Shown here: piece by piece, positions 2,432 through 8,281 of the stretch
How the letters are laid out: the number at the start of each line of letters is the position of its first letter
How positions within the stretch are numbered: position 1 is the first letter of the stretch
Virus record (IMG/VR): IMGVR_UViG_3300011013_000009
Coordinates: 1-64,000 of that record
DNA length: 64,000 nt
Strand: one strand, 5' to 3'
Origin: a virus
The notes under the pieces: generated by a model
Database searches by the model: none
What the model was told of the DNA's origin: nothing
Seen by the model: the letters and a program-made list of their open reading frames with translations, nothing else
Position numbers and translations under genes: made by a program

Positions 2432-3037
2432 ATGAAAAAGATTAACATATGTATTTACGGATATGGACAAGAATTAGTTCAAGGAACTTGGTCTGATGAA
2501 GAAGTAGAAACGTTATTACAAGAATTAAATGACGACAATGACTTATCAACTGTAATATGGAACTTAGAAGAAATACTACCAGATAGTTACGATTGGTATG
2601 ATAGAGATGACCTATGTCATTATTATGGAGGCTTATCGGATAGCTGTAAGATAATAATATCATATGATGATAAAGAAGATACATATGATACTTTATTTGA
2701 TTTAGAAGCAATTGGTGCAATAATAGAATTTGAAGAAGTATATAATTATACTGGTAAGGACAATGTTATTACAATAATATCATCAGAAAAAGGCACAATG
2801 TTTGATGCTGATATTATATTAGAAGATGATGAAGAATTTGACTTATCAAAGTTACGGGTAGAATCAAAAGGAATAATATTCAACAACTATGAAAACGAAT
2901 TAATAACTAGTATATACTACAAAGACAAACAAATAGATGATGAAGGATGTGAAACAAATGGTAAAGGCTTTTATGCTTACCTAGATAAAAAGAAAAATCA
3001 ATGTATAGAAAAAGAAGAAGAAACAAAGAAGAGTTAG
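2432..3037 (+). CDS. Unknown acidic protein of 201 residues
   Basis: The largest gene of this cluster, starting MKKINICIYGYGQEL after a full leader copy. It is strongly acidic (many D and E runs), with an N-terminal part that looks like a small alpha/beta domain and a Lys/Glu-rich tail. Acidic early proteins of phages are often inhibitors or DNA mimics, but nothing here identifies a target, so that remains speculation. Its last 37 bases overlap the next small gene in another frame. Confidence 0.7.
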   Translation: MKKINICIYGYGQELVQGTWSDEEVETLLQELNDDNDLSTVIWNLEEILPDSYDWYDRDDLCHYYGGLSDSCKIIISYDDKEDTYDTLFDLEAIGAIIEFEEVYNYTGKDNVITIISSEKGTMFDADIILEDDEEFDLSKLRVESKGIIFNNYENELITSIYYKDKQIDDEGCETNGKGFYAYLDKKKNQCIEKEEETKKS

Positions 3038-3159
3038 CACTGGCATGGATAATAATAAGTATAGCTAGTATAATAAGTATAATAGTATTCCCACCAATAG
3101 TATTAATAGCTATAGTAATATACGCTATATGGACATTATCAAGACATTATTATTTTTAG
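3001..3159 (+). CDS. Small two-segment membrane protein (52 aa)
   Basis: MYRKRRRNKEELALAWIIISIAS... has a basic N-terminus followed by two Ile-rich hydrophobic stretches separated by FPP, the pattern of a helical hairpin with the positive end inside. The frame begins inside the previous gene and closes at a TAG that is itself the first copy of the TTTTTAG motif. It could be a holin- or superinfection-type small membrane protein; there is no direct evidence for either. Confidence 0.5.
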   Translation: MYRKRRRNKEELALAWIIISIASIISIIVFPPIVLIAIVIYAIWTLSRHYYF

Positions 3160-3810
3160 TCAATTTTTAGTCCATTTTTAGCTATTTCAGCAATGTATTT
3201 TTAGACCAAAGTACTTTTATTTTTAGAATGGTTTTTAGATTTAGTTACTACCAGGCGAAGAATAGGTGTGGTATGTAGTACGTTTACCTTCGGTCCTTTC
3301 AGGCCCTTCGGCAACCCGTATAAGTTCAAGACGCGGATATAGGCATTCCAGGAGTATAAGTGTGTAGTATGGAGTAAAGAATGGATAAAGTCCCCTTTCT
3401 ACCGGTATACATTATTTTTAGGGGGCATATGCTCTTTATCTCAACACCAGGTAGGTCCGGCCACCAGGAATTATTTTTAGTCCATTATACGTGCTTTTAG
3501 AGTCATTTACTTTTAGGCGGAATGGTCGTTATTTTTAGTCCTATATTTAGATTTACTTTTAGACCAAATGCCTTTTACTTTTAGACCAGGAGGCCAGGAA
3601 AGACGGTTTTATTTTTAGTCCAATATAATGTATTTTTAGATGCGTATGTATATATGCGTGTATATATATAGTTATTTTTAGACGGATATGCTATGTATTT
3701 TTAGTTTAATATATAGTCTGGGTATTCTATTTTTAGGGCAATATCCGCACTTTTAGTGCAGATCTGTTCGGTTCTCTAGCTATACGGAGTAAATTATTTT
3801 TAGAAGATCA
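3153..3810 (+). repeat. Gene-free region with about 20 TTTTTAG-type motifs
   Basis: No convincing gene is seen here. The stretch is punctuated by TTTTTAG (or CTTTTAG), mostly as TATTTTTAG, for example at 3153-3159, 3164-3170, 3175-3181, 3198-3204, 3220-3226, 3232-3238, 3415-3421 and 3474-3480, and then about every 15-40 bases to 3805. The motif is followed repeatedly by ACCA, TCCA or ACGG. The pieces between motifs, especially 3245-3410, are clearly richer in G and C than the surrounding genes, as structured RNA would be. All motif copies are on the same strand. They lack a TTTG element 20 bases upstream, so simple promoters are unlikely. Confidence 0.75.
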
Positions 3811-3842
3811 TTAGGATTTATGGATTTTTATTCTTATATTTA
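3811..3842 (+). promoter_or_regulatory. Early promoter, TTAGG / TATATTTA
   Basis: TTAGG (3811-3815) and TATATTTA (3835-3842) are 19 bases apart, like the Bacteroidota TTTG / TAnnTTTG pair. It stands before the gene at 3868. Confidence 0.65.
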
Positions 3843-3867
3843 GAGTATAAACATAAAAAGTATTATT

Positions 3868-3972
3868 ATGGAATTAAAGATATTAGAAGATTATTTACAG
3901 GAATTGGTAGATAACGGGATTATTCATCTAGATATAAAGGATGACATATTATATATAGTTAAACGATTATGA
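3868..3972 (+). CDS. Tiny unknown protein (34 aa)
   Basis: MELKILEDYLQELVDNG... is a short helix-strand peptide behind an early promoter. Its TGA overlaps the ATG of the next gene (3969-3972), suggesting coupling. Function unknown. Confidence 0.5.
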   Translation: MELKILEDYLQELVDNGIIHLDIKDDILYIVKRL

Positions 3973-4247
3973 AATATTTAGGACAAGTAGAAATAGAAAG
4001 AACAGAAGATATCTATGAAGATACAGAAACTGCTAATGTATATAAAATAATAACTGAAAAGACGTATGATATCGGAATAGAATCTGTGCCGATTGAATTT
4101 AACAGCCGTAGCTACAACACTGCGAATAGCGAAATATATATTGAGATATATCAGGATTCGATGATGCATCCGAATAGTTTATATATAGAAAAAGACCCGG
4201 GACAAGTAGAACTTTTGTTGAAAAAGATTTTAGGTAGCGAAAAATAA
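3969..4247 (+). CDS. Unknown 92-residue protein
   Basis: Starts MKYLGQVEIERTEDIYEDTE and reads as a beta-rich domain with an acidic surface and a final helix (QVELLLKKILGSEK). Second gene of a two-gene unit with the 34-residue peptide upstream. No recognised family. Confidence 0.7.
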   Translation: MKYLGQVEIERTEDIYEDTETANVYKIITEKTYDIGIESVPIEFNSRSYNTANSEIYIEIYQDSMMHPNSLYIEKDPGQVELLLKKILGSEK

Positions 4248-4260
4248 ATTTGCTAAAAGA

Positions 4261-4292
4261 TTAGGATCTTTGAAATAAAGGTCTTATATTTA
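4261..4292 (+). promoter_or_regulatory. Early promoter, TTAGG / TATATTTA
   Basis: TTAGG at 4261-4265, an inner TTTGAAAT block, and TATATTTA at 4285-4292; drives 4314 and 4511. Confidence 0.7.
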
Positions 4293-4313
4293 TAGAAATT
4301 AAAATTTAAAGAT

Positions 4314-4514
4314 ATGAAAAAAGGACATTATATGATTACAGATCTGATCGCAGAACTTAAGATTTCATTAAAAAAAGTACCTGCGGTACCTAATTATAAT
4401 AATATTATTAAAATAGTACCTGCTTTAGAACAGTGGGTTAAAGAAAACGGAGATCTGGAATTTGACCCAGATGATATGGAAAAGTTTTTAATGGCAAAAA
4501 AATCAGAGAGATGA
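4314..4514 (+). CDS. Unknown 66-residue helical protein
   Basis: MKKGHYMITDLIAELKISLKK... appears mainly helical, with a D/E-rich motif DPDD near the C-terminus. A second possible start is the Met at residue 7. The TGA overlaps the next ATG by four bases. Function unknown. Confidence 0.65.
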   Translation: MKKGHYMITDLIAELKISLKKVPAVPNYNNIIKIVPALEQWVKENGDLEFDPDDMEKFLMAKKSER

Positions 4515-4720
4515 TAGAAGTAAAAATGACAGTTAGATATCAGGATATATTAATATCTGCCGGGAGATATATTCCAACCGGGACATCGTTTTTGGGTAAG
4601 AAGCTTTATAGAAATATTGATAATGGACAAATTGTTTCCATTGGAAATTTTGAGATTAAAATGATTAATAAATATAATGAGTCTCATGGTATCAATGAGT
4701 GGAAAAACATTGTGGGATAA
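4511..4720 (+). CDS. Unknown 69-residue protein
   Basis: Begins MIEVKMTVRYQDILISAGRYIP; predicted beta strands early and a polar tail. It is coupled to the preceding gene through ATGA. No family recognised. Confidence 0.65.
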   Translation: MIEVKMTVRYQDILISAGRYIPTGTSFLGKKLYRNIDNGQIVSIGNFEIKMINKYNESHGINEWKNIVG

Positions 4721-4748
4721 AAGACGGAAAATAAAGTTAGCAAAATGC

Positions 4749-4777
4749 TTGACACGCATTGATATTATTCTTATATT
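4749..4777 (+). promoter_or_regulatory. Early promoter with TTGACACGCATTGA block
   Basis: TTGACA (4749-4754) and TATATT (4772-4777) are exactly 17 bases apart, within the conserved block TTGACACGCATTGA. This differs from the TTAGG class; see also 5059, 10255 and 12184. Confidence 0.65.
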
Positions 4778-4794
4778 AGTGTAAATTAAAAGAT

Positions 4795-5040
4795 ATGACA
4801 AATTACAAATTAGAATTAGAAGGACATTATGTCACAATCGAGATGAATGAATTTGAGGATAACGTTGCTCAGATTTTTAAAAATAACGATTTAATAGCTG
4901 AATATAAATTCGGTGGAGCTGGAGCAACTCATATATATCATTTGGAAGGTAAAAAACTTATTGATTTACTGGTTGCTATATTATATGAGCAAGCCGACAA
5001 AACTGTTGAAGTGTTAGCTAGCGAAACAAAAAAAGTTTAA
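4795..5040 (+). CDS. Unknown 81-residue protein
   Basis: MTNYKLELEGHYVTIEMNEFED... begins with beta-strand-like alternation, carries a Gly-rich turn (FGGAGATH) and ends in a helix (LIDLLVAILYEQADK). Single-gene unit with its own promoter. Function unknown. Confidence 0.7.
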   Translation: MTNYKLELEGHYVTIEMNEFEDNVAQIFKNNDLIAEYKFGGAGATHIYHLEGKKLIDLLVAILYEQADKTVEVLASETKKV

Positions 5041-5058
5041 AAAAAGTTAGCAAATTGC

Positions 5059-5089
5059 TTGACACGCATTGATTTATTTATTATATTTA
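5059..5089 (+). promoter_or_regulatory. Early promoter with TTGACACGCATTGA block
   Basis: TTGACA (5059-5064), 17 bases, TATATTTA (5082-5089). The upstream GTTAGCAAA is shared with the promoter at 4749. Confidence 0.65.
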
Positions 5090-5112
5090 TATAAATTATA
5101 AAATTAAAAGAT

Positions 5113-5376
5113 ATGACAAAAGGAATTAATAAGCTATATTATAGCTTTAAAGAAATTATTGCAATTTACGCAGAAGCGTTGGAAAATGAAACGGGAGAGC
5201 CTATTGAAAATCTAGAAGCTGTTATGGATTTTGATAATTACAAAATCGAGTTTGATGCAAATGATGATAAAACTGTTATTAAAATATGTGGAGCTTTTAT
5301 ACAATTTGAAATGGATGACACAGATGTATCTGTTGTTAATTATATGGATGGCTCTGGCTGGTATGTTGGATATTAA
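5113..5376 (+). CDS. Unknown 87-residue acidic protein
   Basis: MTKGINKLYYSFKEIIAIYAEALENE... has an N-terminal helix and an acidic beta-rich C-terminal half ending GSGWYVGY. Separate transcription unit between two early promoters. No family recognised. Confidence 0.7.
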   Translation: MTKGINKLYYSFKEIIAIYAEALENETGEPIENLEAVMDFDNYKIEFDANDDKTVIKICGAFIQFEMDDTDVSVVNYMDGSGWYVGY

Positions 5377-5393
5377 AAAAAGTTTAAAAAAGA

Positions 5394-5424
5394 TTAGGAT
5401 AATTGAATTATTATTCTTATATTA
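5394..5424 (+). promoter_or_regulatory. Early promoter, TTAGG / TATATTA
   Basis: TTAGG (5394-5398) and TATATTA (5418-5424) 19 bases apart, before the gene at 5441. Confidence 0.65.
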
Positions 5425-5440
5425 GTGTAAATTAAAAGAT

Positions 5441-6022
5441 ATGGAAAAAAGAAATACGCCGGCGGGCAATACGTATTGGGATGAAAATGGAGCATACCAA
5501 AAAGAATTAAATGAACTATATAACAAACTAGTTCCGATGAGCGGCGATGCCGAAACAGTACATGGAGAATTAGTTAGAGCAGTAAATAGATTATATTACG
5601 AATATTGTAACAATGGGAATTGCAATGCTATTGTACAAGAATATGTCGAGCAGGAATATACATGTTATAATTGTGACGGTACTGGTAATAGAGATTATCA
5701 CGACCACGAGATTGATGAATGGGAGTCTGTAGAATGTGATGACTGTTATGGCGATGGCTATCAATATGAAGAAGAAGAAGGCGATCGTTATATGGATTCA
5801 TATTATGACAGAATGTTAGATTTCATAAGAGATCATGTTTCAAATTCCTATCCGGTAGTTGATGCATTGGAAAGATTTATATTAGATGGTCCTGGCTATT
5901 CGAATTATCAATTTAATGATGCTGAGTATGAGTATTACAATGATGTAGTAGATACTGTAATGCATTATGTATTGAATTCAGAGAATATACCTAATCCGGA
6001 ATATAAACCAGAAAAAGTTTAA
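5441..6022 (+). CDS. Acidic protein with DnaJ-like zinc-binding CxxCxGxG repeats
   Basis: In the 193 residues, two cysteine motifs lie about 24 residues apart: CYNCDGTG (around residue 78) and CDDCYGDG (around residue 105). This is the spacing of one zinc site of the DnaJ cysteine-rich domain, where two CxxCxGxG motifs bind one zinc. No J domain is present, so it is not a DnaJ protein. The flanks are acidic and Tyr-rich. DnaJ-type zinc domains usually bind unfolded protein; here only the zinc site is supported, the role is unknown. Confidence 0.7.
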   Translation: MEKRNTPAGNTYWDENGAYQKELNELYNKLVPMSGDAETVHGELVRAVNRLYYEYCNNGNCNAIVQEYVEQEYTCYNCDGTGNRDYHDHEIDEWESVECDDCYGDGYQYEEEEGDRYMDSYYDRMLDFIRDHVSNSYPVVDALERFILDGPGYSNYQFNDAEYEYYNDVVDTVMHYVLNSENIPNPEYKPEKV

Positions 6023-6028
6023 AAAAGA

Positions 6029-6060
6029 TTAGGATAATTGAAATATTATTCTTATATTTA
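6029..6060 (+). promoter_or_regulatory. Early promoter, TTAGG / TATATTTA
   Basis: TTAGG (6029-6033), inner ATTGAAAT, TATATTTA (6053-6060), before 6087. Confidence 0.7.
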
Positions 6061-6086
6061 AAGTATAATAATAAAAATTAAAAGAT

Positions 6087-6263
6087 ATGGGAAATTTTAA
6101 AAAATATTTAAAAAAAGAATTAGACAGGTTGATTAAAGACGCAGAAGAAATTTGGGAGTCAGAAATCAATCCGGATACAGGAGCTCAATTAACATATGAT
6201 GAGCTTCAAGAAGTAGATAGAGAATTAGAAAGATTATATAGGATGAAAAACAATCCTTTATAA
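6087..6263 (+). CDS. Small helical protein (58 aa)
   Basis: MGNFKKYLKKELDRLIKDAEEIWE... is strongly charged and helical, probably a helical hairpin around the NPDTGAQLT turn. Has its own early promoter and ends just before the structured RNA region. Function unknown. Confidence 0.6.
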   Translation: MGNFKKYLKKELDRLIKDAEEIWESEINPDTGAQLTYDELQEVDRELERLYRMKNNPL

Positions 6264-6267
6264 AAAA

Positions 6268-6725
6268 GCTTGCCATAGCTATTAAATTAGGCGTGGACCT
6301 TTATTGATATGTGATAGCTTCACATAGGTGTTGATCAACCGGTTAAAGTAATCCATGTAGGCAAGTAAATTGTGTAATAATCCAACTACGATAACTTCAT
6401 GGGGGATAGAGGTGAATATAGTGTAGCTTGAAAGATAGCACCCGAATAACTCTATTACACATAAATTTGATTACTACAGGAGAGATAGGTATCACCTTGT
6501 ATCCTGCGGAGGCTTATAATCTCACGTGCTGGAGGGGTAATCATTTAAATGCGTACACCCATGACAGAAGGGCGTAGTTCAATTGCACCTGCCGCTAAGC
6601 AGGAAGATACAATAGCAAAACCTCTGAATATTCTGTCAGGTATTATAAGTGGGCCTTGGAGTCAGGACTCCCAGACTGAGTAGGTTAGTTTTTCATATCT
6701 CTTGCCTACCATATGTGGCCCACTT
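6268..6725 (+). ncRNA. Candidate structured non-coding RNA of five stem-closed domains
   Basis: No convincing reading frame occupies this stretch, but five consecutive segments of 76-99 bases are each closed by a good stem: 6268-6274/6360-6366 (7 bp), 6371-6379/6453-6461 (9 bp), 6468-6474/6537-6543 (7 bp), 6562-6569/6631-6638 (8 bp) and 6647-6655/6717-6725 (9 bp). Inner hairpins support this: 6308-6314/6320-6326, 6292-6297/6352-6357, 6477-6481/6502-6506, 6588-6592/6599-6603, 6658-6662/6667-6671 and 6680-6684/6705-6709. It is much richer in G and C than nearby genes. The fourth domain recalls a tRNA (GTAGTTCAATTG, anticodon-like stem) but has a 6-base loop and no T-arm. Large phage RNAs such as GOLLD or ROOL are possible relatives; identity is unproven. 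Confidence 0.6.
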
Positions 6726-6812
6726 TATTTTTAGAATGATATGACACATTTATTTTTAGAATAATATATAGCTATTTTTAGAATGTATTTTTAGAATAAT
6801 ATTTAGTTTTAG
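6726..6812 (+). repeat. TTTTTAG motif copies after the structured RNA
   Basis: At least five copies of TTTTTAG or TTTTAG follow the last RNA stem directly, as TATTTTTAGAAT repeated. They are the same motif as in 3153-3810, on the same strand, which links the two gene-free regions. Confidence 0.7.
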
Positions 6813-6813
6813 A

Positions 6814-6844
6814 TTTGGATTTTAGAAATAGATTTATTATATTA
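6814..6844 (+). promoter_or_regulatory. Early promoter, TTTGG / TATATTA
   Basis: TTTGG (6814-6818) and TATATTA (6838-6844), with 20 bases between TTTG and TA, the exact Bacteroidota arrangement. Drives 6875. Confidence 0.65.
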
Positions 6845-6874
6845 TAGTATATTAACCATAAAAAGAAAGACCAA

Positions 6875-7156
6875 ATGGCAAAAACAAAAAGAACACCAGA
6901 ATTTCAATTCGGAATTGAATTGACAAGACCGTGGAGTCCAGAAATGTACTCACACAATGATCAAGTAAGAGAAGAAGCTCAGACAATTCTCAATGAAATG
7001 ATTGACAACGGAACAGTAACTGTTAACGGGACTGATATCAGAACCGAAGATACACTTACAAAACAAACCGTAGCTGATCTAAAATATTGGCAATTGGATA
7101 AGTTACACAAAGAACTTAACCTACCATTAACAGTAGGCTTTGTGGGATATAATTAA
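6875..7156 (+). CDS. Unknown protein, paralogue of the 7913 gene
   Basis: Ninety-three residues. The N-terminus FGIELTRPWSPEMYSHND and the C-terminus VGFVGYN closely match the product of 7913-8281 (GIEITKPWSKEMYAHND, EGFVGFK), while the middle differs in length. So the two are diverged duplicates of a small family. A strong intrinsic terminator follows. The basic N-terminus (MAKTKRTP) could bind nucleic acid; function unknown. Confidence 0.75.
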   Translation: MAKTKRTPEFQFGIELTRPWSPEMYSHNDQVREEAQTILNEMIDNGTVTVNGTDIRTEDTLTKQTVADLKYWQLDKLHKELNLPLTVGFVGYN

Positions 7157-7912: not shown

Positions 7913-8281
7913 ATGGCTAAAAAGAAAAAAGAAAAAGTATTCCAGCACGGAATTGAAATTACAAAGCCTTGGAGCAAAGAGATGTATGCTCACAATGACA
8001 AGGTTGCAACGGAGGTAAGAGATGAAATTTGGGAAAGATGGGCTAAGGCAGTTTTAGATGCAAACATAGACAAAAATGGCGCATGGGAATATGATGCTAC
8101 TGAGGAAATGGAAGACATCCAGATAGCTGTTACATGTTACGGATTTGGATTTGGGCATAGTATAGGAGATGTAGAGGATGAATTTATAGATGAAATGGAA
8201 AATCTTCCTTATTACCGACTAAATCAAGTAGTAGAAGATTTAGAAATAGAATTAGAAGAAGGGTTTGTTGGCTTTAAATAG
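7913..8281 (+). CDS. Unknown protein, paralogue of the 6875 gene
   Basis: One hundred and twenty-two residues with the family N-terminus FQHGIEITKPWSKEMYAHND and C-terminus EEGFVGFK. Compared with the 6875 product it has an extra acidic middle part, including a FGFGHSIGD segment. A very basic start (MAKKKKEK) precedes the shared block. Its role is unknown, but keeping two copies under separate promoters suggests distinct uses. Confidence 0.75.
   Translation: MAKKKKEKVFQHGIEITKPWSKEMYAHNDKVATEVRDEIWERWAKAVLDANIDKNGAWEYDATEEMEDIQIAVTCYGFGFGHSIGDVEDEFIDEMENLPYYRLNQVVEDLEIELEEGFVGFK

Follow-up and report, generated by a model that had tools for sequence, protein, structure and literature searches.

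Plasmid iteron origins usually carry a handful of 17-22 bp repeats beside a rep gene, and in CsrB the repeated motifs are displayed in the loops of RNA hairpins. The hallmark of iteron origins is direct repeats that keep in phase with the helix (PMC5043065), and the RepA_N iterons of the PLE of Vibrio cholerae are direct, semi-palindromic repeats meeting on a poly-A/T tract (PMC7145576). Phage T4 carries iterons at oriE (Vaiskunaite et al. 1999, reviewed in PMC3016281), whose role is ill defined, none having been proven. Here we describe a locus that resembles T4 oriE in that a T4-like phage carries clustered short repeats of one direction together with a putative early promoter, conserved in close relatives (PMC3016281).

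The locus lies in a window of 64,000 nucleotides that belongs to a record of 77,441 bp from an uncultured tailed phage (IMGVR_UViG_3300011013_000009). We regard this phage as T4-like because the window encodes a sigma factor, a baseplate-wedge protein and an SbcC-like protein. Its putative early promoters (TTAGGAT ... TTATATTTA), assigned from the known consensus, are Bacteroidota-like, and the hosts are probably Bacteroidota.

Repeat arrays in the window and in related phages

Exact TTTTTAG occurs 15 times at 3153-3803 and four further times at 6728-6794, on the + strand only, in agreement with the initial annotation, which had described the motif as dense on one strand and as returning after a structured RNA. 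The 651 bp of the main array would be expected to hold 0.3 copies from base composition and 1.2 from a first-order Markov model. Outside the arrays the window contains 11 forward and 17 reverse copies; the equal density over the rest of the genome that the annotation had named as evidence against a special role was not seen. With tolerated variants included, 20 copies lie in 3151-3843, separated by gaps of 11-59 bp with a single exception of 195 bp. The main array (3151-3803, + strand) comprises the 15 exact copies and the variants TACTTTTAG, TATATTTAG and CACTTTTAG, with the consensus Y-TATTTTTAG-A; the sequence logo shows that mostly A or T follows, then C or G, then AAT, which accommodates the ACCA, TCCA and ACGG extensions noted earlier. 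The region is GC-richer as claimed, at 37-40% in the densest parts of the main array versus about 28% around it. It is also gene-free in that no open reading frame of at least 60 aa was found between 3160 and 3968, though an ORF for a 52-aa membrane protein (3001-3159, + strand) uses the TAG of the first copy as its stop codon. A second, small array (6726-6812, + strand) consists of TATTTTTAG at 6726, 6751, 6773 and 6786 and TAGTTTTAG at 6804.

Both arrays end in a putative early promoter on the + strand; all promoters described here, the early type included, were assigned from consensus only. The main array leads to TTAGGAT ... TTATATTTAG at 3811-3848, located 35 bp downstream of the start of a terminal module, CTAGCTATACGGAGTAAA (3776-3793, + strand), which is in phase with both array and promoter. 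Directly after the second array follows TTTGGAT ... TATTATATTATAG (6814-6847), and the structured RNA occupies 6270-6725 on the + strand, between the two arrays.

Relatives were collected by fetching 66 loci with the sigma factor as bait, and pattern scans supplied more. After near-identical arrays had been merged, about 28 non-identical arrays remained, all from uncultured phages, and the structured RNA adjoins many of them. Across these arrays, exact and one-mismatch forms of TATTTTTAG number 362 forward and 0 reverse, and most of the tolerated substitutions put G or C at position 1 of the word and C or G at position 3. Among the sigma-bait loci, motif clusters are confined to close relatives, always run along the direction of transcription, and precede the sigma-factor gene by a few kb; each whole record of 160-173 kb contains a single motif cluster. 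Given that relatives share the arrays and that their 160-170 kb genomes contain none elsewhere, we conclude that the array is not a chance occurrence. A DNA-level comparison turned up no relative among isolated phages. Thirty bacterial or archaeal contigs matched the pattern, and a family-type array was present in one alone (L208); this contig, assigned to a Helicobacteraceae metagenome bin, carries the present phage locus and is probably a mis-binned phage. One relative (L021) lacks the array in the 10 kb that precede its sigma gene and has a cluster of at least 16 tRNA genes there (744-2399).

In most relatives, a conserved block (GTGTCTAGTA, GGGGCATAGACTCTTTAT, TGTTCTTAAACG) is followed by the array, the module CTAGCTATACRGAGTAA and an early promoter, GGTTGGA ... 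TATTATATAA, downstream of which lies a tiny membrane peptide and/or the structured RNA ending in a terminator. The window departs from this order. A block related to the conserved segment (GTGTCTAGTA ... GGGGCATAGACTCTTTAT ... TGTTCTTAAACG, 3240-3470, + strand) is enclosed by the main array, and the structured RNA stands 3 kb downstream and is followed by the second small array and another promoter, whereas in relatives its counterpart follows closely on the array and promoter. Many relatives (L096, L146, L153, L162, L017) carry ORFs of 27-30 aa with a single membrane helix after the array promoter, for example MAIVILIAVVLGIGAYMDWRFNRDDWNN, and these are similar to small hydrophobic toxic or exclusion peptides. 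The structured RNA itself, present beside many arrays (oriented L016 6900-7120, L096 2960-3200), is marked by GACGGGGTCCGG, AACCACAAGC ... AACACC, GGCGGATCG and a terminator hairpin. In the window it includes a tRNA-like segment without a normal T arm (GACAGAA ... GTTCAATTG ... TTCTGTC, 6563-6640), for which neither ARAGORN nor Rfam made a call; the structured RNA is absent from Rfam, and no Rfam family reached its gathering score anywhere in the window.

Helical phasing of the repeats and its relation to the putative promoter

The distances between all pairs of copies showed a best period of 10.75 bp (bootstrap 10.75-10.80; 290-295 sites from 22 phages), scoring 11.7 over distances of 8-130 bp and 7.9 when only those of 40-130 bp are counted, and none of 500 interval-jitter nulls reached the observed score. 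The ten most different arrays alone scored 8.9. A simple nearest-gap Rayleigh test gave broad periods, and it was the all-pairs test that resolved the period. Taken singly, 20 of 23 arrays showed positive periodicity, the main array of the window with p=0.004, and about one third of main arrays lacked significant phasing; since the arrays are homologous and the phages are not fully independent samples, these p-values overstate independence. The signal at exactly 10.5 bp was weaker than at 10.75 bp, and that at 11.0 bp was much lower at long range, which speaks against a simple 11-mer repeat. DNA in solution has 10.5 bp per turn, and somewhat larger values have been reported in cells. The units are not alike throughout, the spacers being unrelated and the period non-integer, so that the earlier statement that this is no tandem repeat stands.

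A/T tracts of at least 4 were likewise phased at 10.75 bp, the main array having the highest rank in the 64 kb and the second array the next highest, whereas at 10.5 or 10.3 bp the array was no higher than in the top 2-5%. When the motifs were masked, the spacers displayed an AT periodicity near 10 bp, which stems partly from the extended motif itself, versus a trough there in flanking and coding DNA.

The spacers diverge more than nearby fourfold-degenerate sites in two of three close pairs with enough coding sequence, at 88.5% versus 96.3% identity in one pair and 85.8% versus 98.5% in another, with a reversal in the third, more distant pair (75.8% versus 68.0%). Motif identity in the compared close pairs is 97-99%, and the spacers change by replacement of whole blocks, for the most part with their length unchanged. 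From this divergence, motif identity and length conservation, we conclude that the spacer letters are free to change, whereas the motif is preserved and so, for the most part, is the spacing. The array spacers of L135/L162 and L096/L195 change several times faster than fourfold sites through such block replacements, a pattern suggesting that array alleles recombine frequently.

The sites also share their phase relative to the terminal module CTAGCTATACRGAG: measured against the CTAGCTAT module, 24 phages agree in their mean site phase (R=0.86), and measured against the -35 and -10 boxes R is 0.66 and 0.69, respectively. Among relatives with a recognisable promoter (some have no recognisable -35 box in range), the early-type consensus lies directly downstream of the repeats. 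The distance from module to -35 box is 33-35 bp in ten phages and 44, 45, 97, 108 and 108 bp in others, the values of 44-45, 97 and 108 bp corresponding to about 33 bp plus 1, 6 and 7 helical turns. One phage, at 74 bp, is an exception, about 2 bp off phase. The module match in L010 is a chance overlap with the motif.

Explanations at the level of RNA and of DNA

The initial annotation had offered two possibilities, RNA sites for a binding protein or processing enzyme and a DNA protein array. If the repeats acted in RNA, UUUUUAG in the transcript would be bound by an RNA-binding protein or nuclease as a sponge or processing array, and the uniform orientation along transcription, the adjoining structured RNA and the possibility of read-through (no terminator-like site or hairpin was found on the + strand at 3000-7000, nor do the repeats form a cluster of intrinsic terminators) are consistent with this. 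However, a hairpin around the motif, CTA-UUUU-UAG, showed no covariation over 338 sites. Arrays as RNA folded only a little better than shuffled sequences, with a mean z of -0.6 on the + strand and -1.0 on the - strand, and the effect is thus not strand-specific; the conserved block as RNA gave a z of about 0 with a best helix barely above the null, and the group alignments contained no strand-specific conserved fold. The method is able to detect structure, since the structured RNA downstream of the array in relatives folds better than shuffles (mean z -2.1). A search for a phage RRM protein returned nothing over the cut-off, and a sponge for a host RRM protein was discarded because the RbpB motif from the literature fails to match. 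In addition, a 10.75-bp phasing is not to be expected in single-stranded RNA, the phase to the promoter is constant, and in some relatives copies sit between the -35 and -10 boxes. Because hairpins, covariation and a conserved fold are all lacking, the RNA reading fails; we consider it already largely refuted and very improbable.

By contrast, the annotation's DNA protein array is supported by the helical phasing, the uniform orientation and the constant phase to the terminal module and promoter. The phasing and this constant phase call for sites in double-stranded DNA and for a complex that includes the promoter region, and we see about an even chance that the repeats form a phased protein array controlling an early promoter. 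A protein, postulated here, would bind each TATTTTTAG copy in duplex DNA; because the copies lie whole turns (10.75 bp) apart in the same orientation, the bound proteins would be aligned on one face. Aligned in this way, they might form a single nucleoprotein body by bending or wrapping the DNA over several hundred base pairs; this body would end at the module CTAGCTATACRGAG, which complete helical turns separate from the -35 box of a strong early promoter. Given this whole-turn distance, the body would most likely switch or tune the early promoter, which in turn would drive the structured RNA or the tiny membrane peptide. What speaks against promoter control is that up to 20 sites over 300-900 bp exceed the needs of ordinary promoter control. 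The same body may double as a transcription-coupled origin. That a phage protein coats up to 20 same-face sites and that the wrapped body both fires the structured-RNA promoter and starts replication is, in our estimation, rather unlikely.

A transcription-coupled origin is the main rival to promoter control. Here, an initiator would bind the phased direct repeats and open the A+T-rich promoter region, and the early transcript would prime replication, as has been proposed for T4 oriE. The repeats have the single orientation (362 versus 0 reverse) and the helix phase, coherent to 130 bp, expected of iteron origins (PMC5043065), and the combination of direct repeats with a putative early promoter resembles T4 oriE (PMC3016281). 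Each genome holds a single main array, a short sequence of 84% A+T follows the module in the window, and three 160-170 kb genomes are coded almost wholly on one strand without skew reversal, as a single unidirectional origin would permit. The A+T-rich sequence after the module (59-84% A+T) overlaps a promoter, however. However, model searches of seven records, which may be incomplete, found neither a RepA_N nor a Rep_3 initiator gene, a second array lies 3 kb away in the window, GC skew is unchanged at the array, and an origin does not demand a constant promoter phase. GC skew was set aside as an origin marker, being monotonic and uninformative. On balance, we regard an origin as an unlikely but serious possibility. 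It is improbable that intrinsic curvature suffices, with phased T5 tracts bending the upstream DNA and aiding the alpha C-terminal domains of RNA polymerase with no dedicated protein: the A/T tracts are indeed phased upstream of a promoter, and predicted curvature, computed from wedge values, is modestly higher in the array of three relatives, but all 362 copies keep their orientation although curvature depends neither on a single orientation nor on strict TA...AG edges, and the arrays extend far past the contact range of polymerase. Least probable of all is a packaging or partition site, serving as the target of the small subunit of a terminase or of a partition protein. Although partition sites such as parC of plasmid R1 consist of direct repeats arrayed about a promoter (cited in PMC3235114), neither a terminase nor a partition gene was recognised near the array, sites of this kind usually adjoin the gene of their protein, and the phage looks virulent.

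As regards the protein that a promoter-controlling array would call for, a model search found no MotA-type activator. A small KPWS protein family was rejected as the array binder, its confident model having no match to a known fold. Two paralogues of this small family, with invariant PWS, Y and HN, are encoded in the window at 6875-7156 and 7913-8281, and members lie beside the locus in 16 relatives. Structural genes at 19000-64000 of the window are preceded by what is apparently the late promoter, ATATTTATA, with a core that matches the T4 late TATAAATA when reverse-complemented. The late genes carry ATATTTATA, a variant never found among array copies, and an array of sigma-factor or late-promoter sites was therefore dismissed.

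Comparison with known systems

CsrB-type sponges share with this locus some 20 short motifs in an untranslated stretch, but no array motif sits in a hairpin here, and the spacing is that of helical DNA. The repeats of plasmid iteron origins are likewise direct and in helical phase (PMC5043065), and CTA-TTTT-TAG has the semi-palindromic, A/T-centred shape of the RepA_N iterons of PLE (PMC7145576). Unlike the plasmid origins, this locus has no RepA_N or Rep_3 gene that we could find, and unlike PLE it has many more copies and no detected RepA_N protein. The repeats of T4 oriE are 12 nt long and evenly spaced, whereas here a 9-nt core recurs at irregular whole-turn gaps in up to 20 copies, with a conserved structured RNA as its neighbour and a sigma-factor gene further downstream.

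Comparison of many diverged arrays allows whole-turn spacing to be recognised from the sequence by itself, and this separates DNA from RNA explanations. If the reading in which one wrapped body both fires the promoter and starts replication is true, it would represent a new class of large, promoter-coupled nucleoprotein array in a lineage without a cultured member. The arrays of this lineage are much larger than that of T4 oriE and plainly phased, exist in about 28 natural variants, end in a defined module and probably adjoin a promoter, which renders the role of phased repeats in T4-like phages testable.
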